Shown here one piece after another: positions 1,462 to 30,446 of a DNA stretch of 32,816 nt. Positions within the stretch are counted from its first letter, which is position 1. Each line of letters begins with the position of its first letter. This stretch comes from Alphaproteobacteria bacterium. GTDB taxonomy: Bacteria > Pseudomonadota > Alphaproteobacteria > Caulobacterales > Maricaulaceae. Where the stretch lies: NCBI GenBank assembly GCA_030428405.1, contig JAUIEH010000002.1:1-32816 (forward strand), in the 5' to 3' direction. A program made the position numbers and the translations under genes. Under the pieces are notes generated by a model. The model was not told where the DNA came from. It did no database searches and saw only the letters and a list, made by a program, of their open reading frames with translations.

Positions 1462-2625
1462 TCAAAGCGCTTCGATGATCGTCACGTTGGCGAGCCCTCC
1501 GCCTTCGCACATGGTTTGCAAGCCATACCGCGCGCCGCGCCGTCTCAGCGCGTGCGCAAGCGTCGCCATAAGTTTTGCGCCGGTCGCTCCGAGGGGATGG
1601 CCGAGCGCGATGGCGCCGCCATTGACGTTCAGCTTGCCGGGGTCTGCTCCGGTATGGCGTAACCAGGCCAGCGGCACGGGCGCGAACGCCTCGTTGACCT
1701 CGAACAGATCAATTTCGTCGATACTTAAGCCAGCGCGCGCGAGCGCGCGATCGGTGGCGAAGAGCGGCTCTTCCAGCATGATGACCGGATCGCCGCCCGT
1801 GACCGTCAGTTGACGGATTCGTGCCAAGGGGCGCAGGTCATAGGCCTCGACGGCGTGCTCCGACATGACGAGAACGGCCGCCGCCCCGTCGCAAATCTGA
1901 CTCGCGACTCCGGCGGTTATATGTCCGCCTTCGACAAGCGGTTGGAGCGACGCCAAGCCCTCCATCGAGGCGTCGAAGCGCACGCCTTCATCAACCTTGT
2001 GCAACTCAACCTCGCCAGTCGGCGTCGTCCATTCCACGGGAACGATCTCAGCATCGAAGGCGCCCTCTTCGATGGCGGCGGCAGAGCGCTTATGGCTTTC
2101 GAACGCAAAGGCGTCGAGCTGCTCGCGAGAGAAGCCGTATTTCTCCGCCATCATCTCGGCACCAATGAACTGGCTGAATCCGTCAACGCCGAAGCGCGCC
2201 TTCATCGCCTCGCTGTACGGGTCACAACCTTTTTCAGACAGAACCGACGAAAACATCGGCACGCGCGTCATGCTTTCTACACCGGCCGCTATCACGACAT
2301 CTTGCGTGCCCGACATGACCGCTTGCGCAGCAAAGTGCACGGATTGTTGCGATGAGCCGCATTGGCGGTCAATCGATACAGCGGGTACGGACTGCGGCAG
2401 CCGCGACGACAACACTGCATTGCGCCCAATATGCAGCGATTGCTCGCCGACCTGACCGACGCACCCCATGATGACGTCCTCGACGACGGCGGGGTCGAAG
2501 TCGTTGCGGTCGATCAGCGCATTGAGCGTGCAGGCGGCCAAATCTGCAGGATGCCAGCCCGAGAGGCGCCCGTTGCGTTTGCCGCCCGCCGTGCGCACTG
2601 CGTCGACGATGAATGCGTCAGCCAA
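1462..2625 (-). CDS. Thiolase (acetyl-CoA C-acyltransferase)
   Basis: Nucleophile context DRQCGSSQQSV, GGAIALGHPLGATGA, C-terminal TMCEGGG; proposed TTG start (LADAFIVDAVRT) preceded by purine-rich AGAGAGAGGA; ORF extends to 2691. Confidence 0.88.
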   Translation of the reverse strand: MADAFIVDAVRTAGGKRNGRLSGWHPADLAACTLNALIDRNDFDPAVVEDVIMGCVGQVGEQSLHIGRNAVLSSRLPQSVPAVSIDRQCGSSQQSVHFAAQAVMSGTQDVVIAAGVESMTRVPMFSSVLSEKGCDPYSEAMKARFGVDGFSQFIGAEMMAEKYGFSREQLDAFAFESHKRSAAAIEEGAFDAEIVPVEWTTPTGEVELHKVDEGVRFDASMEGLASLQPLVEGGHITAGVASQICDGAAAVLVMSEHAVEAYDLRPLARIRQLTVTGGDPVIMLEEPLFATDRALARAGLSIDEIDLFEVNEAFAPVPLAWLRHTGADPGKLNVNGGAIALGHPLGATGAKLMATLAHALRRRGARYGLQTMCEGGGLANVTIIEAL

Positions 2626-2687: not shown

Positions 2688-5600
2688 TCAATCGGGATCG
2701 TGATGCTTGACTGTGACGCCGTGCGCCTCTCGGTCCCAGACGTCGCCGGTCAGCCCCTCTTCGCGCAGCTGAACTTTGCGCACCTTTTCCGTCGGCGTCT
2801 TGGGAAGCTCCGGCAAGACGCGAACGAAGCGGGGCACCATGAAATGCGCCATCCGTGTTCGGCAGAATAAGATCAGCTCTTTTGGATCGATTTCATGACC
2901 TGGCGCCGGCGAGACGACGATCAGAATTTCGTCCTCGCCATATTCGCTCGGCACAGCGACCGCTGCGGCTTCGCGCACACTGGGATGGGAGAGAAATTCC
3001 GCTTCGACCTCAAATGACGAAACATTCTCGCCGCGTCGGCGGATTGCATCCTTCATTCTATCGACGAAGTAGAAGTTACCGAGTTCGTCCTGCTTGAAAC
3101 CGTCGCCTGTGTGAAACCACCCGTTTCGCCAAGCTTCCGCCGTCGCTTCGGGCATGGCGTTGTAGCCGTGGTTCATCGACCACGGGCGATCGACCCGCAA
3201 AATCATTTCACCAATTTCGCCCACGCTGACTTCCTCGTCATGAGCGTCGACAAGGCGCGCTTCCACACCGTCGCGCGTCACCCCGCAGGCGCCGGCGATG
3301 GTCGGGTTCTTCTCCGAAACGATGGGACACGAAATCTCGGACATGTTGAACAGCGTGTAGAGATCAATTCCGAACCGCTCACGAAACTCAGTGCTCGTCT
3401 CCAATAGCGGAATCAGGAACGCCCAGCTTAGACAATGGTCCTTATCGTCGGCTGATGTCGGCTGTCGCAACAAGAAGCTCGCCATCGCTCCCAGCAGCGT
3501 GCAGCAATTCGCGTTGAGTCTGCGGATTAGCGGCCAAAACTCGTCCGTGCGGAAACGCTCGACGATCGCAGCCGAGCGCCCTAGCAGCAACATGGCGTAT
3601 GTGCCGACCGTGCCCCCAACATGGAACAGCGGCAAGTTCACCAGATAACGTAAATCCTCTGAATCGCGCTCCTCAAAACACACTGCGGCCGTCGTCGCGA
3701 GATGACAATATGAGCTCAGCACGCCCTTGGACGGTCCCGTGGTTCCCGAGGTGAAGATAATGGATTGTTCGTCCCAGGGTTCGATCGGTCGTTCCAGCAC
3801 GACATCGTCTTCAGCCGGCACGGTAAGCAGATCAAAGCTCTTCGCCTCGCGCCCGGCGCCATATGCGCCCGATCGCGCGTCGAGTTCGCCCCTCACCACG
3901 ACGCCGGCGAGCTTCGGCGCTTCGACCTCTGACAGGCGCGGCGCGAATGCGGCGTCGGCGACGATCACGGCGGCGTCGGAATTATTCACCGTGTGCTGTA
4001 ATATCCCGCCGCGATAGCTGGTGTTGAGCGGCACATAGGTCGCGCCGATCCAGTTGGCGCCAAACCAGATGCGCATGGCGTCGGGGCCGTTCGCAAACCA
4101 AGACAAAACGCGCTCGCCCTGGCGGACGCCCAGCGCGCGCAGTCCTGCGCCTGCGTTTCGCGCGGCTTCGGCGGCGTCCCGATAGGTCCATGTCTCGCCT
4201 GAATCGAAAACCGCGAAAACCTGATCGCCACGCTCGCGCTCATGTCGTTCGAGCACGTAGCGCAGCACACAATCCTCGCGCGCGGGAACCTCGGACGATT
4301 TCCAGCTCGGTTGCTTATTCGTGTCCGGATCAGAGATTGCGGTTTGGGCCGGCTTAGCCGACGCCGAGCCTGCGGCGTCGGTCAATACCGGCAGCTCCAG
4401 GCGCGAAGGATGAACGCCGCCATGATGAACGCGGTTGCGCGCGGCCAGACCGGTCGTCTCAACACCCGGCGGTCCGCCCGTATTCATATTCGGGTCGATA
4501 TGCGGATAGTTCGCGCTCGCGATCATCACGCGGAGACGGTGGCCTTGCGCGAGGCGCCAGGCGGCGTGGCCCAGCGAAATTCGGACTTCCTCGACGCGTC
4601 CCGGCTCCAGCATCGCTTCCCGGTCGAAACCGTTGCGGAAGCGCGCACGAATCATGCCTTCCGCAAACGGCGTACTGACGCCCTCGGGCGAGACATCGCA
4701 AAGATGGCTGACGAAATCAGTGTCGCGCCGATTGCTCGAAATCCAAAGCACGAGTTCGGGTTCGCCGACAATGTCTACATCCGTACCGAGCGGATCGGAG
4801 GTGTAGACTGCAACGTCGGCACGCTGTTCGATCGGCGCCTGATCTACCGGGCCCATGACTAAACCGCCGAGATAGATCGTGCGCCCGCCGCGCGTCGGCG
4901 TCGGCCGTTCGGGGTCGTAGAGAAATTCGTCCGTGCGTTTGCGATAGTTTGGCGCGGCGTCGAGCATTCGTCCGTCATCGGACCGGCGCGCGGCGCGCCC
5001 GCGGCTCGAAAGCCAGAGCGTTTTCTTGCGCGCCTGCGCTGGCGGCCAAGTTTCACTCGTGCACCAAGAATTGGCGTTGAGCAGATAATATCGCACGCGC
5101 GACGGCGCATCGACGGTTTCGCCGTTGAGATGCCTCCGGAAGAAGCTGATATGAGCGTCTGGCACGCCGCCCGCGCGCGCAGAGCCCATAATGCCGAAAT
5201 TCTGCGATCCGCTATACGATGTCAGCGCGCCTGAATGCGCCCAGCCGCCCATCAGTAATTCGTGATCCGCGGCAGAACGCCCCGACAGGTTTTGAAATAG
5301 GCCGACGCTGGAGCGCTGAAAGACGTCGTACCAGCCGCCAATGCTCAGTACAGGCACGTCAATTTTGGACAGATCGACGCCGCGCGGCGCCGCGCCGATC
5401 GTTCGGTTGAACAATTCCTCCGGATGGACTGGAAAACCCGACGCGGCGAACGCCGGCGCCTCTACGATCGGCCGGTGATCCATCATCGTGCGCGGCGCAA
5501 GCGCTGCTCCGGCGATCATCTGCATCACCGCTGGGTCGGGCGCGTCTCCTTCCGCGATCTTCTTCTTCAGCCAATCAGCGCCCATGAACGCCAACCACCC

Positions 5601-6089
5601 ATAGAGATGGTCGAGGCGGAAGGCGCCGCCAGTCTCGATCAGATCGAATTCTTCAAGCGCGACCATTGACGGCGCGATGGCCTGAAGACAAGGCGGCTGG
5701 AGCGCTGCGGCGAAAAGCTGCACAATGGCGAGATAGGATTGACCCGCCATGCCGATTTGATCGGTGCTCCACGACTGGGCCGCCGTCCAGGCGATCGTGT
5801 CGTAGCCGTCCTCGCCTTCTTGCTCCCACATTATGGCGCGCCATTCGCCGTCAGAGGCGCCGCGGCCGCGCGTGTCCTGGACGAGTACGTTGAAGCCGGC
5901 GCGGGCGAGCTGTTCCGGCCGCACGCCTTCTATCGCGGAAATTTCCGATTTGCCGTATGGCGTGCGCATCAACACGGTCGCGCAGGGCTCATCCGTAGAC
6001 GGACGCCATAGGTCCGCGCGCAGGACGACGCCGTCGCGCATCGGCGTCTCCACGTCTTGATGGACCACAAAGCCGACCACGCTCGTCAC
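2688..6089 (-). CDS. Fusion protein: N-terminal CocE/NonD-type X-Pro dipeptidyl-peptidase-like hydrolase (~aa 1-571) plus C-terminal AMP-dependent acyl-CoA ligase (~aa 602-1133)
   Basis: Uninterrupted 1133-aa ORF. GQSYLA nucleophile, GGWYDVF Asp, GGWAHSG His and C-terminal beta-domain of CocE; then a polar linker; then FTSGTTGPSKG, GWFHTGD, RMKDAIRRRGENVSS, TPTEKVRK of acyl-CoA ligases. Confidence 0.92.
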   Translation of the reverse strand: MTSVVGFVVHQDVETPMRDGVVLRADLWRPSTDEPCATVLMRTPYGKSEISAIEGVRPEQLARAGFNVLVQDTRGRGASDGEWRAIMWEQEGEDGYDTIAWTAAQSWSTDQIGMAGQSYLAIVQLFAAALQPPCLQAIAPSMVALEEFDLIETGGAFRLDHLYGWLAFMGADWLKKKIAEGDAPDPAVMQMIAGAALAPRTMMDHRPIVEAPAFAASGFPVHPEELFNRTIGAAPRGVDLSKIDVPVLSIGGWYDVFQRSSVGLFQNLSGRSAADHELLMGGWAHSGALTSYSGSQNFGIMGSARAGGVPDAHISFFRRHLNGETVDAPSRVRYYLLNANSWCTSETWPPAQARKKTLWLSSRGRAARRSDDGRMLDAAPNYRKRTDEFLYDPERPTPTRGGRTIYLGGLVMGPVDQAPIEQRADVAVYTSDPLGTDVDIVGEPELVLWISSNRRDTDFVSHLCDVSPEGVSTPFAEGMIRARFRNGFDREAMLEPGRVEEVRISLGHAAWRLAQGHRLRVMIASANYPHIDPNMNTGGPPGVETTGLAARNRVHHGGVHPSRLELPVLTDAAGSASAKPAQTAISDPDTNKQPSWKSSEVPAREDCVLRYVLERHERERGDQVFAVFDSGETWTYRDAAEAARNAGAGLRALGVRQGERVLSWFANGPDAMRIWFGANWIGATYVPLNTSYRGGILQHTVNNSDAAVIVADAAFAPRLSEVEAPKLAGVVVRGELDARSGAYGAGREAKSFDLLTVPAEDDVVLERPIEPWDEQSIIFTSGTTGPSKGVLSSYCHLATTAAVCFEERDSEDLRYLVNLPLFHVGGTVGTYAMLLLGRSAAIVERFRTDEFWPLIRRLNANCCTLLGAMASFLLRQPTSADDKDHCLSWAFLIPLLETSTEFRERFGIDLYTLFNMSEISCPIVSEKNPTIAGACGVTRDGVEARLVDAHDEEVSVGEIGEMILRVDRPWSMNHGYNAMPEATAEAWRNGWFHTGDGFKQDELGNFYFVDRMKDAIRRRGENVSSFEVEAEFLSHPSVREAAAVAVPSEYGEDEILIVVSPAPGHEIDPKELILFCRTRMAHFMVPRFVRVLPELPKTPTEKVRKVQLREEGLTGDVWDREAHGVTVKHHDPD

Positions 6090-6148: not shown

Positions 6149-6949
6149 TCAGTCACCCGTGAATTCGGGCGGTCTCTTTTCAAGGAATGCACGCGCGCCT
6201 TCTCGCGCATCCGCGATTCCCTTTGTTCTTGCTTGATGATAGAGTTCTTGAATGCGCAGTCGATCGGCGAAGCCCTCACCAACCATGGCTTCACGCATTT
6301 CCTTGTAAAGACCGATCACGCGCGTCGGCCCCCGGGCGAACTTAGCGGCGATTTCGGCGACGTCGGAGGCCAAGGCGTCATCGTCGCTAAGTCCGTGCAG
6401 AAAGCCGATGCTCAAGGCTTCCTCGGCGTCTAACAATCGCCCGGTGAGCAATATCTCGGTCGCGCGGCTCCACCCAATCGCGGAGGCGAAACCTGCACCG
6501 TTGCCGACTTGTCCGACCTTGACGAGCCCGCTGCCGATACGCGCGCTTTTGGCGCCATAACGAACGTCGCATGCTGATGCGAGTTCGGCGCCCGCGCCTG
6601 CCGCAAAGCCGTTGATCGCTGCAATGACGGGCTTCGGCAGGCGGATGATGGCCTGCATGATGCGGATGTAAATCGATGATCCGTCCAACGGATCTAGCGC
6701 GGCGGAGGCATTGTCGGGGTTCGAATTCAGCCAGGCGTCTAGCCCGTCAATATCGTCGCCGGCGCAGAACGCGCGACCGCGTCCCGTGAGCACGACGACG
6801 CGCGTTTGCGGGTCGCGTTCAGCGTCGCGGAGAGCGTTGAGTAGCCCCACGCCCAAATCGCGATCGAGCGCATTCAACTTATCAGGACGATCAAGCGTGA
6901 GCGTCAAAACGCACTCGGATTGTACGATATCCAGGCTGGGCGCGCTCAT
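6149..6949 (-). CDS. Enoyl-CoA hydratase/isomerase (crotonase) family protein
   Basis: Crotonase fold motifs (GRGRAFCAGDDID, PVIAAINGFAAGAG); start Met (MSAPSLDIV) overlaps the upstream SDR stop. Confidence 0.85.
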   Translation of the reverse strand: MSAPSLDIVQSECVLTLTLDRPDKLNALDRDLGVGLLNALRDAERDPQTRVVVLTGRGRAFCAGDDIDGLDAWLNSNPDNASAALDPLDGSSIYIRIMQAIIRLPKPVIAAINGFAAGAGAELASACDVRYGAKSARIGSGLVKVGQVGNGAGFASAIGWSRATEILLTGRLLDAEEALSIGFLHGLSDDDALASDVAEIAAKFARGPTRVIGLYKEMREAMVGEGFADRLRIQELYHQARTKGIADAREGARAFLEKRPPEFTGD

Positions 6950-7776
6950 GTGGCCGACGAATCGGGAAGCATATGCGGCGTCCAAGGACTGTCCGCGTTG
7001 CGGTTGTCGCGCCTAAACCAGCGCGGATAGCCGTGCAGCGTTTGACCGCCGTCGACGACGATGGAGGCGCCAGTCACGTAGGCGGCCGCATCGGAGCAGA
7101 GAAAGCTAACGACCTCGGCGACATCGTCCGGTTGACCAATGCGCGCAAGCGCCGTCTCCGCGAGCAACGTTTCGCGCACCTCGTCTTGCGCAAGCACGCC
7201 ATCCGTCATGGCAGTGGCGACCGCGCCTGGCAGGATCACGTTGACGCGCACGCCTTGGGCGCCGAGCTCAGACGCCAAGATTCGCGTCAGGATCAACAGC
7301 CCGCCTTTTGAAGCGCAATACGCACCGAAGAGGTCCGTCGGCGTCGTCGCGCCGGTTGATGCGTTCAAGACGATGGCGCCGCCATGGGGCATGCGCCGCG
7401 CCGCGGCCTGCGCCACGAAAAACGTACCGCTCAGATTGATGTCGACGTGACGACGCCAGTCAGTTTGAGTGACATCTAGCAGCGCGCCATATCGTCCGTA
7501 GCCGGCGTTCGCGAAACAGAAATCTAGGCCTTCACAGGAAGCATCGACCTTTTCAAACGCGGACGCGATCGAATCATAATCCGCCTGATCATAAACAATC
7601 GGCTCGACCGACCCGCCTTGCGCGCGACATGTATCCGCCACGGAGACGAGTTGATCGGCCTTACGGTCAAGCGCGAATACGCGCGCGCCCTCGGCTGCGA
7701 GCTTGGCCACGCTGGCGGCGCCCATGCCGCTTGCAGCGCCGGTCACGACGCCAATTTTGTCTTTGTACAGTTTCAT
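6946..7776 (-). CDS. SDR-family oxidoreductase
   Basis: TGAASGMG cofactor motif, NAG, YCASK catalytic motif, C-terminal VTGASIVVDGG. Confidence 0.9.
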   Translation of the reverse strand: MKLYKDKIGVVTGAASGMGAASVAKLAAEGARVFALDRKADQLVSVADTCRAQGGSVEPIVYDQADYDSIASAFEKVDASCEGLDFCFANAGYGRYGALLDVTQTDWRRHVDINLSGTFFVAQAAARRMPHGGAIVLNASTGATTPTDLFGAYCASKGGLLILTRILASELGAQGVRVNVILPGAVATAMTDGVLAQDEVRETLLAETALARIGQPDDVAEVVSFLCSDAAAYVTGASIVVDGGQTLHGYPRWFRRDNRNADSPWTPHMLPDSSAT

Positions 7777-7815
7777 AATTCGCGCGACTTAGAGAATGAT
7801 GACGACATTGCATGA

Positions 7816-7831
7816 ATGAACGTATGTTCAT
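7816..7831. promoter_or_regulatory. Putative TetR operator ATGAACGTATGTTCAT upstream of the SDR-ECH-fusion-thiolase operon
   Basis: ATGAAC-N4-GTTCAT perfect arms, 40 bp upstream of the SDR start; recurs at 14231 and elsewhere. Confidence 0.7.
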
Positions 7832-7853
7832 TTTTACGCACAATGCGCGTCTG

Positions 7854-8519
7854 TCAAGTAGCGTCAGGGCGGATCGGCACGATGGCGGCGCCGGAATGCG
7901 CCATGCGCGCGGCGAATTCGGCGTAGACGTCAGCGAGTTGTTCGGGCGTCATCGCACCGTCATCGTTGAACCATTCCGACACGCGAACGACCATGTCGAT
8001 CATCGCCATGGCGAGCAAATGCCCAGCCGGTTCGCCACTTGTTTTCGGCAGATCAAACTCGCCCACGGCAGCACCCGCGCGCAAAATATCTTCAAAGACG
8101 GCGCGCACGCGGCGGCGCAGCTGACGCACATGTTCTTTCTCTTCGCCCGACAGGAAATGATATTCCTGATTGGCGACCAGCGCGCTTTGACGATTGGTGG
8201 AATGAAACACCACGAATTCGCGGATGAGATTTTTCAGCCGGTCGGACTGATTGCGCGCCGGCTGTCCGAGCGCGAGATAGATCTTCTCTTCGACGACCTG
8301 ATGGGTGTCTTTGATGATCTCGAAGAGCAGCTTGTCTTTAGAGCTGAAGTGATTGTAGAGCGCGCCCGGCGTGAAACCGCATGCTTCGGTGATGTTGCGA
8401 GTCGTCGTCGCCTTGAAGCCATTCTTGAAAAACAGCTCCGTCGCGACCGCCTTGATATAATCGGCGGTGTTCGCCGGGACCGCGCGCGCCGGGCCAGAAA
8501 CTTTAGCTTTCGCCATCAC
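7854..8519 (-). CDS. TetR/AcrR-family transcriptional regulator
   Basis: N-terminal HTH: FFKNGFKATTTRNITEACGFTPGALYNHFSSKDKLLFEI. Confidence 0.9.
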   Translation of the reverse strand: MMAKAKVSGPARAVPANTADYIKAVATELFFKNGFKATTTRNITEACGFTPGALYNHFSSKDKLLFEIIKDTHQVVEEKIYLALGQPARNQSDRLKNLIREFVVFHSTNRQSALVANQEYHFLSGEEKEHVRQLRRRVRAVFEDILRAGAAVGEFDLPKTSGEPAGHLLAMAMIDMVVRVSEWFNDDGAMTPEQLADVYAEFAARMAHSGAAIVPIRPDAT

Positions 8520-8597
8520 CGCAACTTTCTCGCCGAGCCGCTCTGAACATCATGACCGAGACACGGATCATTGACAAACGCGCGCCCCGTCAACGTA

Positions 8598-10793: not shown

Positions 10794-12425
10794 ATGGTCT
10801 CCACGAACGCCTCCGCCGCCCCGCGCCCGTCCGAAACCCTCGACGCCGGGGCGCTCTTAAGACGCCAGGCGCGCGACATTCCGGACACGATTTTCGCCGT
10901 ATTCCCAGACGGGGACGCCTGGACCTTCGCGGATGCACTGCGCCAAGCCGAGGGCGTGAAAGCGGGGTTGCGGCGCATCGGCGTTTCGCCAGGCGACACC
11001 GTATTGACGATGCTGCCGAACGGTCGCGACGGTCTGCGCGCTCTCTTGGGCGTGTGGCTCGCTGGCGCAGTCTATGCACCGCTCAACACGGCCTATCGCG
11101 GCGACCTCCTGCAGCACGTGGTCAATCTGTCTCAAGCGCGCGTCATGCTAGCGCATGATCAAGTCGTCGAGCGCCTGCGTGGTCTCGCATTGCCCGAATT
11201 GTCATGCGTCATCGCGATGGGGGGGGACGGCGAGATTGATTTGGGACCGGACATAACCTTGGCGGGTCCAGATACTATCGCGCCTGAGCAAGCGCATTCT
11301 GGCGAAGATCATGATGAGCCGCGCGAAACCTGGCGCACCTGCGCGCTGATTTATACCTCCGGCACGACGGGACCGTCGAAAGCGGTCGAGCAGTCCTGGG
11401 CGTTTTACGACGCGTTCTGCAACACGATGTATGGCGAATTATCCGCCGACGATCGGTATTACGGCTATCTTCCGCTGTTCCATACGGGCGGCGTTTCCAT
11501 GGCCTACGCCATACTGAGACTTGGCGCGTCAATGGTGATGACCCAGGCCTTCAGCACAAGCACTTATTGGGACGATGTCCGCCGCTATGGCGTGACAAGC
11601 GCCTGCATCATGGGTTCGATGGGCGCTGCTATGGAACGCGAAGAGCCTCGCGACGACGACGCGGATAACCCGATGCGCTTCGTGATGATGGGACCGATGG
11701 TGGAGAATATCGAAGCGTTCAGACGACGCTTCGGCGTCGAGCTGTTCACGGAGTACGGAACGACGGAGGTCGGCATACCGTTTCGCTCAGGCTTCGATGT
11801 CGCCGACCACACGACCTGCGGACGCTTGGTGGAGGGTTATCAAGTCCGGCTTGTCGACGCCTATGACCGCGACGTGCCGGACGGCGAAGCCGGCGAGCTC
11901 GTCGTGCGTCATGATCGGCCGTGGGTGTTGAATTCAGGCTATCGCGGCATGCCGGACAAAACGGCGGAAGCCTGGCGCAATGGCTGGTTTCACACCGGCG
12001 ATCTGTTCCGGCGCGCGCCGTCGGGCGACTATTTCTTCGTTGATCGCGCAAAAGACGCGCTGCGTCGGCGCGGCGAAAACGTCTCCTCGCTCGAAGTTGA
12101 AACCGAACTCCTCAAACATCCTGACATTATGGCCGCCGCAGTCGTCGGCGTGGCCAGCGGCGACGGCGTCGGCGAAGAGGAAATCAAAGCCTGCCTCGTG
12201 CTTCGTCCGGATTCGGACATCGATTTTCACACCTACATTCCAGAGCTCGCCGAACGCATGCCGCACTTCATGGTGCCGCGCTTTTTCGAGTTATTGCCCG
12301 AACTGCCGATGACCTCGACATCGAAGATCCGCAAGGTCGAACTTCGTGCGCGCGGCGTGACGCCTGAGACGTTCGACCGCGAGGCCGCCGGCATCAAAAT
12401 CAGGCGCGAGAAGCTGCGCGCCTGA
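10794..12425 (+). CDS. AMP-dependent acyl-CoA ligase (CaiC/FadD-like), paralogous to the ligase half of the fusion protein
   Basis: YTSGTTGPSKAV, GWFHTGD, RAKDALRRRGENVSS, TSTSKIRK. Confidence 0.92.
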   Translation: MVSTNASAAPRPSETLDAGALLRRQARDIPDTIFAVFPDGDAWTFADALRQAEGVKAGLRRIGVSPGDTVLTMLPNGRDGLRALLGVWLAGAVYAPLNTAYRGDLLQHVVNLSQARVMLAHDQVVERLRGLALPELSCVIAMGGDGEIDLGPDITLAGPDTIAPEQAHSGEDHDEPRETWRTCALIYTSGTTGPSKAVEQSWAFYDAFCNTMYGELSADDRYYGYLPLFHTGGVSMAYAILRLGASMVMTQAFSTSTYWDDVRRYGVTSACIMGSMGAAMEREEPRDDDADNPMRFVMMGPMVENIEAFRRRFGVELFTEYGTTEVGIPFRSGFDVADHTTCGRLVEGYQVRLVDAYDRDVPDGEAGELVVRHDRPWVLNSGYRGMPDKTAEAWRNGWFHTGDLFRRAPSGDYFFVDRAKDALRRRGENVSSLEVETELLKHPDIMAAAVVGVASGDGVGEEEIKACLVLRPDSDIDFHTYIPELAERMPHFMVPRFFELLPELPMTSTSKIRKVELRARGVTPETFDREAAGIKIRREKLRA

Positions 12426-12431
12426 GCCGGT

Positions 12432-13205
12432 CTATCCCGTGGGAGGCGGCGCGCCGCCGGCGGACACGATGCGCACCGCCATCCACGCATGAAGGTCAGC
12501 GACAGCTTCAGCCGATTGCGCGGCGCCTGGCTCGTACCAGCGCGCGGCGCGAATGCCCATGTTCAACAGCGACATGACGACGATATTGATCTGGGACGGC
12601 GAAAGTCCGGACTCGAAAACGCCGGCGTTCACCCCCGACTGAACGACCTCAGCGAAAGCGCTGCGCAATCGGCGCCGATTGGCGATATTGCGCTTGCGGT
12701 CATTGCCCGAGAGCCAGCGATATTCCGAACTCGCCGTTAGCGCGGCCCGCTGATGCGTCAGGTGAAAGAGCACGAAGGCGCGCACCATGTTGGACAATTG
12801 CGCGGCCGGGTCCGCCCCGCCCGCCTCGCGCGCACTCGATACGCAATCCCAAACCCGCGTCTGAGCGTCCAACGCGATCGCCAGCAGCAGCTCTTCTTTG
12901 GACTTGAAGTGGTTGTATAAAGCGCCCGGCGTTAGTCCGCACGCGGTCGTTATCTGGCGAATGGTCGTCGAGACGAAGCCATGCTCGAAAAATAGATTCA
13001 CAGCCGCTTCGAGAATGCGATCGCGCGCGTCAGTGCGTGAGTTGGGGCCGAACGCGTCGCCGCGCCGCGATTGCGGCTTTGGTTTCAATTGAGCCGGCTT
13101 CGGAGAATCGTCATCGCCATGACGTCGTCCGACCCCGCGCCGGGCGCCAGATCCGTCGCGTCGGCCAGGCGCTGTATCAGACCGCGGCTTTTCGTGCTTC
13201 CCCAT
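12432..13205 (-). CDS. TetR/AcrR-family transcriptional regulator (start uncertain)
   Basis: HTH: FFEHGFVSTTIRQITTACGLTPGALYNHFKSKEELLLAI; ORF extends to 13265, proposed start MGKHEK; 5' end overlaps the ACAD 3' end. Confidence 0.85.
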   Translation of the reverse strand: MGKHEKPRSDTAPGRRDGSGARRGVGRRHGDDDSPKPAQLKPKPQSRRGDAFGPNSRTDARDRILEAAVNLFFEHGFVSTTIRQITTACGLTPGALYNHFKSKEELLLAIALDAQTRVWDCVSSAREAGGADPAAQLSNMVRAFVLFHLTHQRAALTASSEYRWLSGNDRKRNIANRRRLRSAFAEVVQSGVNAGVFESGLSPSQINIVVMSLLNMGIRAARWYEPGAAQSAEAVADLHAWMAVRIVSAGGAPPPTG

Positions 13206-14218
13206 GCTCCTTGCAACTCCATCACGGTGCGACTGGCGCGTCGCGAAATGTCCGTTGCGGCCCATTTGGCCATGGCTGAACCCCGCAAGAGTTCGGCCAT
13301 CGGAGCGTTTCGATCCGCACGGTCCGCAGCGTCCGACAACAATAATCGCGCAGCCGTCAGCTCTCTGTCGACAAACGCCAACGGCGCGTCACGACTGTCG
13401 GGCCGTTTCGCTTCGGCGTCAAAGCGTCGTCGCGCCCGCTCTATCCCCTTGTCGAATGCTGCGCGCGCAATGCCCAGATGAATGGCCGCCAGGCCGAGAC
13501 GACCCGTGCGCACCAGCTCATGGAGCCACATTTTGGCGGCCTGGCCTTCTTGCCCGATAAGGTGATTCTCGGGCGTCCGGACGGCATTAAGGATCACCGG
13601 ATTGATCGACAATTGCGGCACGCCGGAAAAATCGTAACGCGGCTTGATTTCGAGCCCTTCCGCACCTGCCTCGATGAGAAAAATCGACGGGCCGGCATCC
13701 GTCGCCGCTGTGACGAGAAAAATATCGGCGACGCCGGCCCAGGCCGCCATCGCCTTGCGTCCATCGATCACCCACGCATCGCCGTCGCGGCGCGCGCGCG
13801 TATTCAACGCCGAAATCGACGAGCCCCCGACAGGTTCGGTGATGGCGTCACAGGTGAACAGCTCTCCGGCGGCGACCCTCGGAATGATCGACGCCGCCAA
13901 GTCTTTGGACGCATATTCCTGTAATATGGTGGTCGCAGCGCACGAACTCGTAATCTGAAATCCCAGCGCTGTCGCGCGCGCGGAAAATATCTCGACCAGT
14001 TCTGCGAACTCCCGGTGGCTCGCCGCGCCGCCGCCAAATTCGGCGTTCAGCGTCACGGCTAGGAATCCCTCCGATCCAAGAGCTGCAAGTAGCGCTGGGC
14101 TGAATTCGTCGCCTTCGTCGAACGCTTCCAACGCGGCCGGTCCGCTCGCGATCCACTCATGCGCGCGCTCGACAATTTCGCTCATCAGTTCCCCCGATTT
14201 CAGCCGCGGCATCGACAT
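13085..14218 (-). CDS. Acyl-CoA dehydrogenase family protein (ACAD-1), atypical active site
   Basis: ITEPVGGSS, AWVIDGRKAMAAWAG and C-terminal helical domain; C-terminal catalytic segment reads LAPGAGSDDV. Confidence 0.85.
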   Translation of the reverse strand: MSMPRLKSGELMSEIVERAHEWIASGPAALEAFDEGDEFSPALLAALGSEGFLAVTLNAEFGGGAASHREFAELVEIFSARATALGFQITSSCAATTILQEYASKDLAASIIPRVAAGELFTCDAITEPVGGSSISALNTRARRDGDAWVIDGRKAMAAWAGVADIFLVTAATDAGPSIFLIEAGAEGLEIKPRYDFSGVPQLSINPVILNAVRTPENHLIGQEGQAAKMWLHELVRTGRLGLAAIHLGIARAAFDKGIERARRRFDAEAKRPDSRDAPLAFVDRELTAARLLLSDAADRADRNAPMAELLRGSAMAKWAATDISRRASRTVMELQGAWGSTKSRGLIQRLADATDLAPGAGSDDVMAMTILRSRLN

Positions 14219-14282: not shown

Positions 14283-15422
14283 ATGTTGAGCGACGAACTA
14301 GAGACTTACCGCGAAGGCGTGCGACGCGCGATCGAGCGCCGCTTGTCCGAAGGCGCCGGGCCGCGCGCGCTGGCCGATTCCTATCCGAGCGAATGTCTGG
14401 AGGCGCTCGCCGACATCAAGGTCGCGGGCCTTAATCTCTCGCCCGCCTACGGTGGCGAAGAAGTCGGATTCGTCGCAGAAGGCGTGGTCGCAGAGGAACT
14501 CGCGCGCGTCGATATGAATGCGGCCTTCTGGTTTCTGGGGTCGCGCCGCCAAGGCAAGGCCATCGAAGTCGGCGGCTCGTCCGAAATGCAGGACGCCTAT
14601 CTGGCCGATATCATCAACGCCAAAATTTGGACGGCGTGGGGTTCTACGGAACCAAGCAGCGGCAACGACATTCAAGGCATGCGCACCCGCGCCGAGCGGC
14701 GCGGCGACAAATGGGTGGTGAACGGAGAAAAAACCTCTGTCAGCGCGGGCATGCTCAGCCCCTTCATCATCATCTTCGCGCGCACCATAATCGGTGGCGA
14801 AGAGAGCGGCCTCACCTCCTTCATCGTTCCTGTCGACACACCCGGATTGCAGCGCACGCCGTTTCGCGACGGCGTCTTAAAACCGATGGGACGATGCAGC
14901 GCCTATTTCGACGACCTCGAACTTAGCGACGCACATGTCATCGGCGAACCGGGGCGCGGCGGCAGACTCGCACTCGCCACGTTTCAAGCCGCTAGGCCCA
15001 TCGCAGCGCTAATGGCGCTGGGATGCGCGGCGGCCACGCTGGAGGAGACGATCGGCTACACGCGCGAGCGCGTGGTCATGGGACGTCCTATCGGCGGCTA
15101 TCAGGGCGCAAGCTTTCGGGTCGCCGATGCAGCCACCGCGATCCACGCCGCGCGGCTGGCTTGCTATCACGCGCTTCAGCGCCTCGACGAGACCGGTCGC
15201 GACGAAGTCGCAACCTCGATGGCGAAGCTGCACGGCACGCATGTCGCCTGCGATGTCATGAAATCGCTGATGGAAGTGTGGGGCCATTATGCGTTCACGC
15301 ACGAATACCCATTGCTTCAGCGCTATAACGACGTCACGTCGACGCTGTCCTGGGACGGCAGCAGCGACATCCACCGGCTCGTCATCGCCCGCGCGCTGAT
15401 CGGTCGTGAGATCACCGGATGA
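14283..15422 (+). CDS. Acyl-CoA dehydrogenase family protein (ACAD-2), first gene of the F420 operon
   Basis: WGSTEPSSGND, WVVNGEKTSVSAG, C-terminal TLSWDGSSDIHRLVIARALIG; ATG start chosen, ORF from a TTG at 14250. Confidence 0.88.
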   Translation: MLSDELETYREGVRRAIERRLSEGAGPRALADSYPSECLEALADIKVAGLNLSPAYGGEEVGFVAEGVVAEELARVDMNAAFWFLGSRRQGKAIEVGGSSEMQDAYLADIINAKIWTAWGSTEPSSGNDIQGMRTRAERRGDKWVVNGEKTSVSAGMLSPFIIIFARTIIGGEESGLTSFIVPVDTPGLQRTPFRDGVLKPMGRCSAYFDDLELSDAHVIGEPGRGGRLALATFQAARPIAALMALGCAAATLEETIGYTRERVVMGRPIGGYQGASFRVADAATAIHAARLACYHALQRLDETGRDEVATSMAKLHGTHVACDVMKSLMEVWGHYAFTHEYPLLQRYNDVTSTLSWDGSSDIHRLVIARALIGREITG

Positions 15423-16078
15423 GCGCACACAACACCATCGCCATTATCGGCGGCGCCGGCGCCATGGGCGGAGGGCTTGCGTCGGCTTTTCTGCGCGCCG
15501 GACGCAGTGTGGTGATCGGTTCGCGCGATCGCGCCCGCGCCAACGCTGCTGCGTCTGCGCTTGCAGCCGACACAGCGCATGCCGACGTCACCGGTCTGAG
15601 CAATCTCGACGCCGCTAAGAGCGCCCCCGAAATCGTCGTTCTGACCGTTCCTTATGCCAATCACCTCAACGTATTGAGAGAAATTCAGCCGGGTCTCGAC
15701 AACAAAATTCTTATCGACGCCACTGTACCCCTGCGCCCGCCAAAGGTCGCTCGTGTGCAGCTGCCGGAGAAAGGTTCGGCGGCCGTCGAGGCGCAGGCGT
15801 TTCTCGGCGCAAGCGTGCGCGTGGTTTCGGCGTTCCAGAATGTCAGTGCGGAAAAACTGAAAACGGGCGCCCCCAATTGCGATGTGTTGGTGGCGGGAGA
15901 CGACGTTGATGCGCGCGAGCGCGTCATCGCGCTGGCCCAGGAAGCCGGCATGGCCGCGTGGCACGCCGGCCCGCTCGACAATTCAGCCGCCGCCGAAGCG
16001 CTCACATCCGTGTTGATCCATATCAACAAGCGCTATGGCGCGACGGCGGGCGCGGGCATTCGCATCGTCCTCGACTAA
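15419..16078 (+). CDS. npdG: F420-dependent NADP oxidoreductase-like protein (Fno/NpdG)
   Basis: N-terminal IIGGAGAMGGGLASAFLRAGRSVVIGSRD Rossmann motif, VPYANHL, DATVPL, AFQNVSAEKL; ATGA overlap with ACAD-2; adjacent to F420 biosynthesis genes. Confidence 0.85.
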   Translation: MSAHNTIAIIGGAGAMGGGLASAFLRAGRSVVIGSRDRARANAAASALAADTAHADVTGLSNLDAAKSAPEIVVLTVPYANHLNVLREIQPGLDNKILIDATVPLRPPKVARVQLPEKGSAAVEAQAFLGASVRVVSAFQNVSAEKLKTGAPNCDVLVAGDDVDARERVIALAQEAGMAAWHAGPLDNSAAAEALTSVLIHINKRYGATAGAGIRIVLD

Positions 16079-16081
16079 GCC

Positions 16082-16903
16082 ATGACGACGACCGACGACG
16101 CCTCCCCGCCAAACGCCGCCGCTGGCAACGACCAGCGCCCTCCCGGCGCCGCGCGATATGAAGCAATCGCACTTTGCGGCGTCGGCGAAGTTTCGAGCGG
16201 AGACGACCTGGCCGAAACCATCCTGAAAGCGAGCGCGACGTCGGGCGTCGCGCTCGAAACCGGCGACATCGTCGTCATTGCACAGAAAATTGTTTCCAAA
16301 TCCGAAGGCCGCCTCGTTGCTCTCAATGACGTCACGCCGACGGCGCGCGCCATACGCATCGCGAAACAGACGAACAAGGACTCGCGCCTGATCGAACTTT
16401 TGCTTCAAGAATCATCGCGCATATCGCGCATCGGCAACGGCGTCGTCATCACGCAGCACCGCACCGGCGTGACGCTCGCAAACGCCGGCATCGACGCCTC
16501 CAACGCGGCCGAAGGCAGCGTCGTTTTGTGGCCGGAGGATCCGGACGCCTCCGCGCGCGCCATCAAACACAGCGTCGAAGAGAAATGCGGCGTCCGGATC
16601 GGAGTCATCATTTCCGACAGCATCGGACGCCCGTGGCGGCTAGGAACGATCGGCCACGCCATCGGCGTCGCCGGATTCGCACCGCTCAACAATTGTTGCG
16701 GCCGCCTCGATCGCGCCGGCCGCGCGCTGCAACACACATTCGTCGCGATCGCCGATGAAATGGCAGCGGCGGCCTCGTTGCTGATGGGCGAAGGCGATGA
16801 AGGCCGCCCCATCGTCGTGCTTCGCGGCCTAGGCGCACCGATGTCGGACGAGGGTGCGGCGAGCGATCTCCTCCGTCCCGCTGAACACGACATGTATCGA
16901 TGA
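16082..16903 (+). CDS. cofE: F420-0:gamma-glutamyl ligase (CofE-type, without the FbiB C-terminal domain)
   Basis: GDIVVIAQKIVSKSEGR, ISDSIGRPWRLGTIGHAIGVAGF motifs; 273 aa. Confidence 0.93.
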   Translation: MTTTDDASPPNAAAGNDQRPPGAARYEAIALCGVGEVSSGDDLAETILKASATSGVALETGDIVVIAQKIVSKSEGRLVALNDVTPTARAIRIAKQTNKDSRLIELLLQESSRISRIGNGVVITQHRTGVTLANAGIDASNAAEGSVVLWPEDPDASARAIKHSVEEKCGVRIGVIISDSIGRPWRLGTIGHAIGVAGFAPLNNCCGRLDRAGRALQHTFVAIADEMAAAASLLMGEGDEGRPIVVLRGLGAPMSDEGAASDLLRPAEHDMYR

Positions 16904-17859
16904 GCGACAAGCTCTCTGAGCAAATGATATGCGCCATGTCGGGCGGCGTGGGCGGGGCGAAGCTCGCTCTCGGGCTAGCGCGCGTCTTGCGCCCCGGCGC
17001 GCTCGCCGTCATCGCCAATACGGGCGACGATTTTGATCATCTCGGTCTGCGCATCTGGCCGGATTTCGACACGCTGCTCTACACGCTGGCGGATATCGCA
17101 AATCCCGAAACGGGCTGGGGGCGCGCCGGCGAGACCTGGACATTCATGCGCACGCTCAGCGCGCTCGGCGGCGAAGACTGGTTCCAGCTCGGCGACGCCG
17201 ACCTCGCCGTACATGTCATCCGAACGGAAATGCTCCGGCGAGGATTGAGCGCGAGCGACATCGCCCTTCGGCTTACGCAAGCTTTCAAGGTCGAACACGT
17301 GATCGCGCCGGCGACCGAAAGTTGTGTTCGCACGGTACTAAATACCGAAGACTGTGAAATGCCGTTCCAGGATTATTTCGTGCGCGAACGCTGCGCTCCG
17401 ATCGTGCGCGGCGTTCGCTATGATGGCGCGGAGCGCGCGCAACCCTCGCCGGTATTCCGACGCGCGCTGAGCGGCGATTGCCGGGGCTTTATTCTGTGTC
17501 CGTCGAACCCATTGTTGAGCCTTGAACCCATCCTCTCCATTACAGGCGTGCGTCAGGCTCTTCGCGACCGCCAGGCGCCGCTAGTCGCGGTCTGCCCGAT
17601 CATCGGCGGCGAAGCCGTCAAAGGCCCCTCGGTCAAGATCCTCAACGAGCTGGGCGAAGATGCGACTGCACTTGGATTTGCTGCGCGCTATAGCGACATT
17701 CTCGACGCAATTCTCATTGACCCGGCCGACTCCGACCACGGCGCGGACATCAGAAAACTCGGCGTCAGCGTCGTCGAAACGCCGATCCTGATGACCACGC
17801 TCGACGATAAGAAGCGGGTCGCGAACGACGTGCTGCGCACGCTCGAGGCGCTGGCATGA
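16900..17859 (+). CDS. cofD: 2-phospho-L-lactate transferase family (CofD/FbiA)
   Basis: MSGGVGGAKLALGLARVL, NTGDDFDHLGLRIWPDFDTLLYTLA, CPSNPLLSLEPIL; ATGA overlap with cofE. Confidence 0.95.
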   Translation: MSDKLSEQMICAMSGGVGGAKLALGLARVLRPGALAVIANTGDDFDHLGLRIWPDFDTLLYTLADIANPETGWGRAGETWTFMRTLSALGGEDWFQLGDADLAVHVIRTEMLRRGLSASDIALRLTQAFKVEHVIAPATESCVRTVLNTEDCEMPFQDYFVRERCAPIVRGVRYDGAERAQPSPVFRRALSGDCRGFILCPSNPLLSLEPILSITGVRQALRDRQAPLVAVCPIIGGEAVKGPSVKILNELGEDATALGFAARYSDILDAILIDPADSDHGADIRKLGVSVVETPILMTTLDDKKRVANDVLRTLEALA

Positions 17860-18446
17860 CGCGCGTGGTCATTCCGCTCAAATCTCTTGAGGAGGCCAAA
17901 TCCCGGCTTGTTCCCGCGCTGTCGCCACGGTCGCGCCGCGAGCTCGCAATCTCAATGGCGGCTCATGTCATCGCCGCGACAATTCGCACCGCAGCCGTCA
18001 ACGGCGTTGTCGTGGTCACCACTGATCGAACGCTCGCCGCTCTCGCTCGCGCGCGCGGCGTCGAAGTGATCCAATCGCGCGCCGACACCGGGATGAATGA
18101 AGCCGTCCGGATCGGACTTGATTGGGCTGGACGCAGCGAAAACCGCCTGGTTTTGCCAGGCGACCTTCCATTATTGTCCGCCGACGCAATAAACGAGCTG
18201 ATCGGTCGGGCGTCGCGACGGCGACCCAGCATTGCGCCGGACGCGGCGGGAACCGGAACCAACGCGCTGTTCATTCCGGCGGGATGGCGCATGCGAACGC
18301 GCTTCGGCGACGACAGCATGAGCGCGCACCTGGCCGAAGGCGCTCGGGCGCTTTGGAGGAAAGCGCCAACGCCCTTCATAGACGTGGATGCGCCCGACGA
18401 TTTGATCCTTACGCGCCGCTGCCTGCGTCTTCGGAGTATGCGATGA
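17856..18446 (+). CDS. cofC: Phospholactate/PEP/3-PG guanylyltransferase family (CofC/FbiD)
   Basis: IPLKSLEEAKSRL, LPGDLPLLSADAI, GTGTNALF; ATGA overlap with cofD. Confidence 0.93.
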   Translation: MTRVVIPLKSLEEAKSRLVPALSPRSRRELAISMAAHVIAATIRTAAVNGVVVVTTDRTLAALARARGVEVIQSRADTGMNEAVRIGLDWAGRSENRLVLPGDLPLLSADAINELIGRASRRRPSIAPDAAGTGTNALFIPAGWRMRTRFGDDSMSAHLAEGARALWRKAPTPFIDVDAPDDLILTRRCLRLRSMR

Positions 18447-23062: not shown

Positions 23063-23063
23063 C

Positions 23064-27187: not shown

Positions 27188-29479
27188 ATGGTTGATAGTC
27201 GTCTGCAACGGCGCGCACTGCTGGCGCTTGGGGCTTCCGGCGCGTCGTTGGCGTTTGCCGGCTTGGGCGCATACGGAGCTGCGGCTCAAGATCAGAGCGT
27301 CGACGGCGCGCGCTCGGGCGGCGTGGAGCGGATCATCGTCACGTCTCGGCGCGTTGAAGAAAGCCTTCAAGACGTTCCGGTCGCGGTGACAGCGTTTCAA
27401 GGCGACGCCCTTGAATCCCGACTAGTCGAAGACATTATCGACATTCAAAACATCACGCCGAGCTTGACGCTTTATCAGGCCACGAATTCGAACAACTCGA
27501 CTGCGGCGTTCATCCGCGGCATCGGTCAGGCCGACCAGCTTTATTCATTCGATCCCGGCGTCGGCATTTATATTGACGACGTCTTCGTGAATCGTCTGCA
27601 GATGGGCTTCATCGAAGCGCTCGACATCGACAGGGTCGAAGTGCTGCGCGGCCCCCAGGGCGTGCTCTACGGAAAGAACACGAATGGCGGAGCAGTGCGC
27701 TTTTACAGCCAGGCGCCGGAACACGAACTTTCCGGGCAGATCGATCTGACCGTCGGCAGCGAGAACCGCACGGACGTGCGCGGAATGATCAATATGCCGA
27801 TCGTTCCCGGTACATTTGCAGTGCGCGCCAATATCCTGGCGCGGTCGCGCGACGGCTACATCACGCAAACGACGACAGGCCAGACGGTCGACGACGTCGA
27901 GCTGCTCGTCGGTCGTATCGCCGGCCGCCTCGAACTCGATAATTTCGAAGCGCTCCTGACATTCGACGTTCAAGACGACAATTCCGGCGCGCCGTTCCCG
28001 ACACCGATCACGCCTTTGGTCATCTCCGACCCGGTCGGGCTTTATTGCGCAAGCATCGGCATGGCTGCGCCGTGCGTCGACACAGCTCAACCGGCTCTTG
28101 CGCCCTATCAGACCGGCGCCGAATTAACACCGCTTGCGGACAACAACGCCTGGGGCGCTAGCGCGCGGCTTTCCTGGTCCAACGGTCCATGGACGGCGAC
28201 GTCAATTACGGCGTTCCGGGATGTCGATCTGGAATTGGCGTTCGACCTCGACGCCTCGCCGCTTCCATTGTTCATCGACTTTCAGGACCAGCAATCCGAA
28301 CAGTTTTCGCAAGAGTTCCAGCTCGCCTTTGACAATGACGGACCGCTCGACGTCGTTCTCGGCGCGTTTTATTTCGACGAGACTACCGATTTCGGCGCGA
28401 CGCAGGCCGTCGATGCGTTTCTCTTGAATCCCGGATTCGTCAACCAGGTCAGTCAAAGCACAAGCTCATACGCAGCGTTCGCTCACGTCAGCTACGACCT
28501 AACCGAACGGCTCGCAATTTCCGGCGGCTTGCGTTATTCGTATGAAGAGAAGGACAACTCAAATTTCCTGCGCCTTCAGCATCCTTTCTTCTTCCTGCCG
28601 ATCGGAACGGATGTCGGCGGCTTCATCGATCCGGCGACCGGGTTCCCTTTCTCCGCCGATCTCATCACCGGGAGCGACAGCTGGTCTGATATTCTCCCTC
28701 GCATCGCACTTGAATATCAGGCTACTGACGACACGCTGCTTTACGCCAGCTATTCGGAAGGCTTCAAGAGCGGCGGCTTCAACGGTCGCTTCAGCTCGGG
28801 CGCCAATCAACAACCCTTTTACGATCAAGAAACCGTTCGAACCTACGAAATCGGCGTCAAGACGACTTGGTTGGACAACCGCGTACGCACGAACATTGCG
28901 GTGTTCTACAACGATTTCGAAGGCTATCAGGCCACGGTCGAAGTTCCGGACCCCGTGCTCGGCACGCTGCAGACCATCACCAACGCCGCCGATTTCACGT
29001 CATTCGGTTTTGAGTTCGAGTGGCTTGCTCAACCGACGGATCAGTTCACCTTTGGCGGCGCATTGGCTTATATCGACAGCGAGTTCTCAGGTTTCATCAA
29101 CCCGGCTACGGGCGCTGATCTGAGCTCCAACGAGTTGCAGAGCACGCCTGATTGGACGCTCAGCGCTTATGTCGATTATACGATCCCGATCGCGCATTGG
29201 GCGGAACTCAGCCTGGGCGCCGACTTCGCCTATCGCGGCTCTTATTTCACCGAAATCGACAACAACCCGCTTCTGTTTCAGGACGACTACACCCTGTTCA
29301 ACGCCCGCGCGACGCTGCGGTCGCCGAACGACGTGTGGTCTGCGACGCTTGCTGGACGCAATCTTGGCGATGAAGCAGTGCTCGTCGACGGCCGCGTCAT
29401 ATCCGGGCTGATATCCGTAACCAGCGCAGATTATGCAGACCCCAGAACGTGGAGCCTCACATTGTCGCGCCGCTTCTAG
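27188..29479 (+). CDS. TonB-dependent outer-membrane receptor
   Basis: Plug-domain motifs (IIVTSRRVEESLQDVPVAVTAF, FIRGIG, IDRVEVLRGPQGVLYGKNTNGGAVRF), C-terminal aromatic residue SRRF; strong RBS GGGGGAGG. Confidence 0.95.
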   Translation: MVDSRLQRRALLALGASGASLAFAGLGAYGAAAQDQSVDGARSGGVERIIVTSRRVEESLQDVPVAVTAFQGDALESRLVEDIIDIQNITPSLTLYQATNSNNSTAAFIRGIGQADQLYSFDPGVGIYIDDVFVNRLQMGFIEALDIDRVEVLRGPQGVLYGKNTNGGAVRFYSQAPEHELSGQIDLTVGSENRTDVRGMINMPIVPGTFAVRANILARSRDGYITQTTTGQTVDDVELLVGRIAGRLELDNFEALLTFDVQDDNSGAPFPTPITPLVISDPVGLYCASIGMAAPCVDTAQPALAPYQTGAELTPLADNNAWGASARLSWSNGPWTATSITAFRDVDLELAFDLDASPLPLFIDFQDQQSEQFSQEFQLAFDNDGPLDVVLGAFYFDETTDFGATQAVDAFLLNPGFVNQVSQSTSSYAAFAHVSYDLTERLAISGGLRYSYEEKDNSNFLRLQHPFFFLPIGTDVGGFIDPATGFPFSADLITGSDSWSDILPRIALEYQATDDTLLYASYSEGFKSGGFNGRFSSGANQQPFYDQETVRTYEIGVKTTWLDNRVRTNIAVFYNDFEGYQATVEVPDPVLGTLQTITNAADFTSFGFEFEWLAQPTDQFTFGGALAYIDSEFSGFINPATGADLSSNELQSTPDWTLSAYVDYTIPIAHWAELSLGADFAYRGSYFTEIDNNPLLFQDDYTLFNARATLRSPNDVWSATLAGRNLGDEAVLVDGRVISGLISVTSADYADPRTWSLTLSRRF

Positions 29480-29506
29480 GCAAACTCTCTCTCCCTCACT
29501 TGAACC

Positions 29507-29540
29507 GGCGAGCGAAGGAGACTTCGCTCGCCGCTTTTTT
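29507..29540 (+). terminator. Rho-independent terminator after the TonB-dependent receptor
   Basis: GGCGAGCGAAG-gaga-CTTCGCTCGCC perfect 11-bp stem followed by GCTTTTTT. Confidence 0.9.
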
Positions 29541-29630
29541 CGCGACGCTGGGCGCAGATCAACACGCGTTATCATCCCAACGCCAATTGAAGGATAACGC
29601 CGTGCTCGCATCACTTCGGAGCAAATCGCT

Positions 29631-30446
29631 ATGACCGACTGGATGGAGTATATCGGCGAAGCCGGCGAGATCGAACATGACGGTTGCAGACTGCATTACC
29701 GCGTTTCAGGATCGGAAACGAACCCGCCGATTGTTCTGACGCATGGCGGAGCTTTGGACCTCCGAAGCTGGAACGCGCAGATCCCAGCGCTTATCGACAA
29801 CTATCGCATCATAACATGGGATAGTCGCGGACACGGACTTTCGAAACCGATCGGCGGAATAACTCTGCATGGCGCCGCGAAAGATCTCAAAGCGGTCCTG
29901 GATCATCTTAACGTCCGCAACCCTATTCTCGCTGGCCTCTCCTGGGGCGGATATGTGATTCAAGAATACGCCTATCACCGCATGGGATCTGTCCGCGCGA
30001 TGATCTGTCTGGATACGACAGCGGTCACCTATACGAAGCTGTCCAAATTCGAGAGCTGGAGCTTCCGACACTCAACATTCTACCACCGTCTGTACCCTTA
30101 CGGCTTTCTGAAATGGGCGACGCCGCCCGCGGTCGCTCATGACAAGTCCGTGCGCAAATACGTCAAAGAAGCCATGAGCATGATGAGCGGACGCGAGTTC
30201 ATCACGTTTTGGAAGGCGGTCTCGCGCAGTCTCCATTTCGATGAAAGCTATGACTATCCGTTTCCACTCCTGATCGCATATGGCGAAGAGGACAATGCCG
30301 GCAGCATCAAGGGCTGCGCGGAACCCTGGCATCAACACGCCTCGAATTCGACGCTTGTGACGATTCCGCGCGCCAAACATTGCGCCAATCAGGACAATCC
30401 GGAACGAACCAACGAACTGATTCTAGATTTCTGTTCCCGATTATGA
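29631..30446 (+). CDS. Alpha/beta hydrolase
   Basis: LTHGGALDLRSW, WDSRGHGLS, GLSWGGYV nucleophile elbow, AKHCANQD C-terminal His. Confidence 0.9.
   Translation: MTDWMEYIGEAGEIEHDGCRLHYRVSGSETNPPIVLTHGGALDLRSWNAQIPALIDNYRIITWDSRGHGLSKPIGGITLHGAAKDLKAVLDHLNVRNPILAGLSWGGYVIQEYAYHRMGSVRAMICLDTTAVTYTKLSKFESWSFRHSTFYHRLYPYGFLKWATPPAVAHDKSVRKYVKEAMSMMSGREFITFWKAVSRSLHFDESYDYPFPLLIAYGEEDNAGSIKGCAEPWHQHASNSTLVTIPRAKHCANQDNPERTNELILDFCSRL

Follow-up and report, generated by a model that had tools for sequence, protein, structure and literature searches.

The fusion gene and its neighbourhood

The window, by which we mean the whole 32,816-nt stretch of alphaproteobacterial DNA analysed here, carries on its minus strand an uninterrupted reading frame (2688-6089) that encodes 1133 amino acids from a GTG codon, with no internal stop. 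The true start is probably the GTG at 6080, giving a protein of 1130 aa (2688..6080), because the Shine-Dalgarno sequence GGAGGTGA ends 5 nt before it and because it aligns with the methionine of both unfused orthologues described below. The frame joins a CocE/NonD hydrolase (residues 4-569) to an AMP-forming acyl-CoA ligase (residues 596-1133) through a disordered linker (about residues 570-595). Such a single-polypeptide fusion had been proposed in a first-pass annotation of this DNA, and the open frame together with the Pfam domains of both halves bears this out. No signal-peptide-like stretch was seen by eye at the N-terminus, and for that reason the protein is presumably cytoplasmic.

The hydrolase half (4383..6080, minus strand) comprises an alpha/beta hydrolase domain (PF02129, Peptidase_S15, residues 19-286, 172 bits) and a beta-sandwich (PF08530, PepX_C, residues 326-565, 141 bits), both far over the cut-off; the latter is the C-terminal beta domain that had been noticed earlier. 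The TIGR00976 CocE_NonD model spans residues 16-569 with 427.8 bits against a cut-off of 66.3, and is itself covered from position 2 to 548 of 550. The predicted catalytic residues Tyr45 (in RTPY), Ser118 (GQSYLA), Asp255 (GGWYDVF) and His285 (GGWAHSG), the last three of which lie in motifs already singled out in the first-pass annotation, line up with the matching motifs of the solved cocaine esterase and are conserved in eight of eight orthologues. Judged by this family score, the triad and the tyrosine, the hydrolase half is a member of the CocE/NonD family, and its best Foldseek match was cocaine esterase 1ju3 (TM 0.79 by target length).

The ligase half (2688..4304, minus strand) matches AMP-binding (PF00501, residues 614-965, 176 bits) and AMP-binding_C (PF13193, residues 1027-1102, 54 bits), again far over the cut-off. 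Its motifs are unbroken (the P-loop TSGTTGPSKG, FNMSE, FHTGD, RRRGEN and the A10 lysine, Lys1102, the predicted catalytic residue), and the P-loop and Lys1102 are conserved among orthologues. Foldseek matched it to AMP-forming ligases, including 4-coumarate- and benzoate-CoA ligase (TMt about 0.8). With both domains, the P-loop and the A10 lysine present, it is classed as an AMP-forming acyl-CoA ligase of the ANL superfamily, and the expectation of a complete ligase after the linker thus held. The top family match, the PRK06155-type NF004808, covers the whole ligase length with 481 bits; because this lies below the cut-off of 722, we do not assign the half to that equivalog. Neither half appears decayed, the predicted catalytic residues of both being intact.

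The fusion gene lies in an apparent operon of four minus-strand genes separated by gaps of less than 70 nt. The operon begins with an SDR dehydrogenase (6946..7776; 47-49% identical to its syntenic orthologues), followed by an enoyl-CoA hydratase/isomerase of the crotonase type (6149..6952; 53/52% identical to the orthologue adjoining the unfused ligase in L015/L017), the fusion itself and a PRK06504-type thiolase (1462..2625; 68% identical to the L015 orthologue), among whose nearest solved structures is the steroid thiolase FadA5. A TetR gene (12432..13265, minus strand) is a candidate regulator; its product, with homology only from about residue 76, shares 35-37% identity with the TetR that adjoins the unfused hydrolase gene in L085/L087. 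Assigning a substrate through the solved relatives of the TetR, thiolase and hydratase gave loose hints (FadA5, KstR2, PaaG-like) and was set aside. On the plus strand lie a second, unfused ligase (10794..12425; 42% identical to the fusion's ligase half) and a TonB receptor with an alpha/beta hydrolase (27188..30446), which are 38-39% and 30-31% identical, respectively, to their counterparts in the TonB-hydrolase pair that neighbours the unfused CocE gene of L085/L087. Acyl-CoA dehydrogenase genes are also found in the window.

Three further observations concern the window. A set of F420 biosynthesis genes (CofE, CofD, CofC and a CofG/H-like fusion) with an F420-dependent oxidoreductase occupies 15419-20791 on the plus strand, amid otherwise catabolic-looking genes. 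In a 2-oxoacid dehydrogenase cluster, an E2-like protein (22022-23119, minus strand) has lipoyl and E3-binding domains, and a catalytic acyltransferase domain was not recognised even at E 5. Between the SDR of the operon and the next SDR, a 244-aa ORF (7812-8546, plus strand) had no confident family match.

Unfused orthologues, gene pairs and a second fusion

In phylogenetic trees, each half of the fusion is sister to proteins of exactly the same two genomes (support 100/100 and 100/99). These genomes, Sphingopyxis sp. Root154 (L084/L085) and a Niveispirillum MAG (L086/L087), together G792/G794, each encode the orthologues of the two halves as separate proteins within a single gene cluster. 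In these clusters the SDR, hydratase and ligase genes stand in the same order as in the window, with the ligase unfused, and the Niveispirillum cluster also includes a thiolase 68% identical to that of the window. The CocE orthologues are 46-48% identical to the hydrolase half and adjoin genes for a TetR regulator and for a TonB-hydrolase pair, both of which have counterparts in the window. In both genomes, about 14-15 kb separates the CocE gene from the ligase gene of the cluster, and the two are on opposite strands. The cluster with unfused orthologues is rare: searches of 384 other genomes of the class for the hydratase (E ≤ 1e-55) and of 199 Root154 relatives for the CocE (E ≤ 1e-100) gave no match. 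The genome searches throughout were samples with few candidates scored per genome, and their counts are lower bounds.

Early searches found no other case, which made the architecture look unique to this genome. This was overturned by a search among relatives of Streptomyces iranensis, which recovered a second full-length fusion (L095, genome G1040) of 1169 aa; its four domains match those of the window fusion in kind and order, at 48% identity over residues 7-1127. The fusion is therefore genuine and not peculiar to this genome. The two fusions differ in that L095 has a linker of about 60 aa of unrelated sequence and lies in a cluster with ketosynthases. For this clade the hydrolase and ligase trees agree in topology, the fused state needs two changes on each, and a single origin of the two fusions was rejected by AU tests on both halves (p-AU 7.8e-6 for the hydrolase tree and 2e-89 for the ligase tree). 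With a common origin rejected for hydrolase and ligase alike, we conclude that the genes were fused twice, independently. Among 66 relatives of G1040, no fused form was seen.

Four further genomes (L096-L099), called actinobacterial here, like L095, on the basis of their recovery as relatives of a Streptomyces genome, have directly adjoining CocE and ligase genes, the stop codon of one overlapping the start codon of the next within 4 nt. In L097, L098 and L099 the CocE gene comes first (GTGA), and in L096 the order is reversed (ATGA). Homologues of the hydratase and the SDR stand beside the pair in all of the L096-L099 loci, and an Amidohydro_2 gene is present in the L099 cluster as well as in those of Sphingopyxis and Niveispirillum. 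In every one of the eight genomes where this CocE clade was found, the ligase orthologue either forms part of a fusion or is encoded next to the CocE gene or elsewhere in its cluster; conversely, two ligase orthologues (L108 and L109) lack a fused or adjacent CocE. The unfused pairs (L084/L085, L086/L087 and L096-L099) thus resemble the fusion in keeping the two orthologues together in a cluster with hydratase and SDR partners, and differ from it in encoding two separate polypeptides. The clusters also hold another alpha/beta hydrolase, often together with an Amidohydro_2 protein.

Several other candidates were considered. A Tistrella match (H1, query residues 484-1128) resembled a partial fusion, but the frame upstream contains stops, and the match is a chance extension. 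Acidobacterial CocE genes in long frames were not ligase fusions, their partners being Amidohydro_3 or Peptidase_M28 instead, and the acidobacterial L020/L021, in which a ligase gene lies upstream of a CocE gene, were rejected as orthologous pairs because the CocE falls outside the orthologous clade. A relative of an acidobacterial genome encodes CocE-type domains followed by Amidohydro_3 in one polypeptide of 1097 aa (L100:4860-8153, minus strand), and CocE-type domains are joined to PA/Peptidase_M28/TFR_dimer domains (glutamate-carboxypeptidase-like) in proteins of about 1300 aa (L101:3651-7559 and L104:4066-8136, both minus strand) that form one CocE tree clade represented in several genomes. 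In S. iranensis, a more distant CocE (36%), again outside the orthologous clade, is encoded next to an acyl-CoA ligase gene (29%) in divergent orientation (L018:6274-9668). Beside the CocE-ligase pair of L096 lie genes resembling those of ABC transporters, one of them for a Peripla_BP_6 binding protein (L096:1161-5809, minus strand), which suggests that the substrate or its acid is imported.

Could the window frame nevertheless be two adjacent genes merged by a sequencing or assembly error? The genome is a single draft in 610 contigs, the relatives searched included no other member of its genus, and several linker codons lie one substitution from a stop. The junction itself (4305..4382, minus strand, residues 570-595) is rich in Ala, Ser, Pro and Thr. 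The N-termini of the unfused ligases L015/L017 read M(N/S)xxxW...VP and align with about residues 590-602 of the fusion, and the unfused hydrolases stop soon after the strand equivalent to residues 561-568. Therefore, although the linker of about 30 polar residues described in the first-pass annotation does exist, most of it is native hydrolase tail and native ligase N-terminus. Codon 590, which sits about where the start codon of the unfused ligases falls, is ACG; among codons 555-614 in all frames the sole ATG meets a stop after 13 codons, and as alternative in-frame starts the region offers TTG at codon 569 and GTG codons within the conserved motif. Because the ligase start codon is missing as well as the stop, undoing a single sequencing error would still not give two normal genes. 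Third-position G+C also runs on across the junction without a break. An artefact is thus extremely improbable; with the same architecture arisen independently in L095, the fusion is natural.

Proposed activity and alternative readings

An AlphaFold2 model built from a shallow 16-row alignment reached a pLDDT of 75.8 and a pTM of 0.52, with the relative placement of the two halves not fixed. Residues 571-598 are disordered in it (pLDDT < 50). This disorder and the fact that the two fusions have unrelated linkers speak for a flexible tether in the predicted structure and lend no support to a tunnel, nor to the earlier suggestion that the acid is channelled to its CoA thioester.

We consider it fairly probable that the protein is a soluble bifunctional enzyme, formed by the in-frame joining of two cognate pathway genes, that would free an acid from an ester or lactone and activate it as a CoA thioester. 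In this scheme the CocE/NonD half would act as a cytoplasmic serine hydrolase (Ser118-His285-Asp255, with Tyr45 in the oxyanion hole), cleaving an ester or a lactone, or less likely an amide. The ligase half would then convert an acid, most likely the hydrolase product, to its CoA thioester in an ATP-dependent, AMP-forming reaction, and the hydratase, SDR dehydrogenase and thiolase of the operon could degrade the thioester by hydration, dehydrogenation and thiolysis, as in beta-oxidation. Fusion would ensure that the two activities are made in equal numbers and kept close together by the flexible tether. The intact domains and motifs, the operon, the co-clustered orthologues, the overlapping pairs and the second fusion of separate origin all favour this reading. 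Repeated independent fusion and overlapping unfused genes are strong comparative evidence that the CocE/NonD hydrolase and the acyl-CoA ligase work together. The functional link in the hydrolyse-then-activate enzyme first envisaged therefore stands, whereas the catalysis, the order of the steps and the shared intermediate are what we infer, the order from family chemistry and operon content.

Some observations fit the proposed bifunctional enzyme less well. The distant, oppositely oriented genes of G792/G794 indicate that tight coupling is not obligatory, two ligase orthologues occur apart from any fused or adjacent CocE, and the disordered linker is unconserved between the two fusions. The other alpha/beta hydrolase or the Amidohydro_2 protein of the orthologue clusters could also be what supplies the ligase with its substrate. 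The halves might accordingly act at different, non-consecutive points of one pathway, with fusion fixing their co-expression and stoichiometry only, as the arrangement in G792/G794, the reversed gene order in L096 and the additional hydrolases of the clusters would allow; we regard this as rather unlikely, because the stop/start overlap in all four adjacent pairs and the two independent fusions favour consecutive steps. There is a slimmer chance still that the order is reversed, the ligase making an acyl-CoA first and the CocE half acting on the thioester, or on a later ester or lactone, by thioesterase activity, ring opening or acyl transfer. Several actinobacterial clusters do pair the two genes with KAS III and FabF-like ketosynthases and with ketoreductases, resembling macrotetrolide clusters (PMC4979870, PMC10817512), but the operon of the fusion includes thiolase and enoyl-CoA hydratase genes, a ketosynthase was not found among the window genes examined, and the solved CocE homologues are carboxylesterases.

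Significance and relation to known systems

Both halves belong to known families; what is new is their fusion, its convergence and the conserved pair. The view that the architecture is not an established one holds for the open-access literature, in which we found no paper on the CocE/NonD-ligase combination (subscription papers and InterPro/CDART lay outside the search), but, as L095 demonstrates, it is not confined to this genome. We tentatively suggest that the undescribed pair, with its crotonase, SDRs and often Amidohydro_2, may define a new pathway of ester or lactone catabolism across phyla that couples hydrolysis to CoA activation, its two genes having been fused on at least two occasions. 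The pair offers a testable role for two large families whose members are mostly without known substrates, and, on its sequence, the fusion might serve as a ready-made bifunctional enzyme for converting esters to acyl-CoAs in one pot.

How does this system compare with those already described? In macrotetrolide (nonactin) clusters, CoA esters are built up by an ACP-less pathway (PMC4979870, PMC10817512). These clusters include the ligase NonL, the hydratase homologue NonS and NonD, the name contained in that of TIGR00976. The L095 and L098 loci, with ketosynthase, ketoreductase, hydratase, CoA ligase and CocE/NonD genes, are likened to them by kinds of enzyme and not by NonL or NonD sequence, and the likeness is a lead only. 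Such an ACP-less type II PKS make-up is present in the L095 cluster and was not seen among the window genes examined. The PRK06155-type ATP-dependent acyl-CoA ligases of the ANL superfamily are the nearest family of the ligase half, which differs from them in carrying a hydrolase at its N-terminal side. Cocaine esterase CocE (PDB 1ju3, 3i2j) shares with the fusion both hydrolase domains, the triad and the oxyanion tyrosine in a full-length alignment (residues 8-569) at about 30% identity; the fusion, in contrast, adds a whole ligase and sits in an operon for CoA-dependent degradation.
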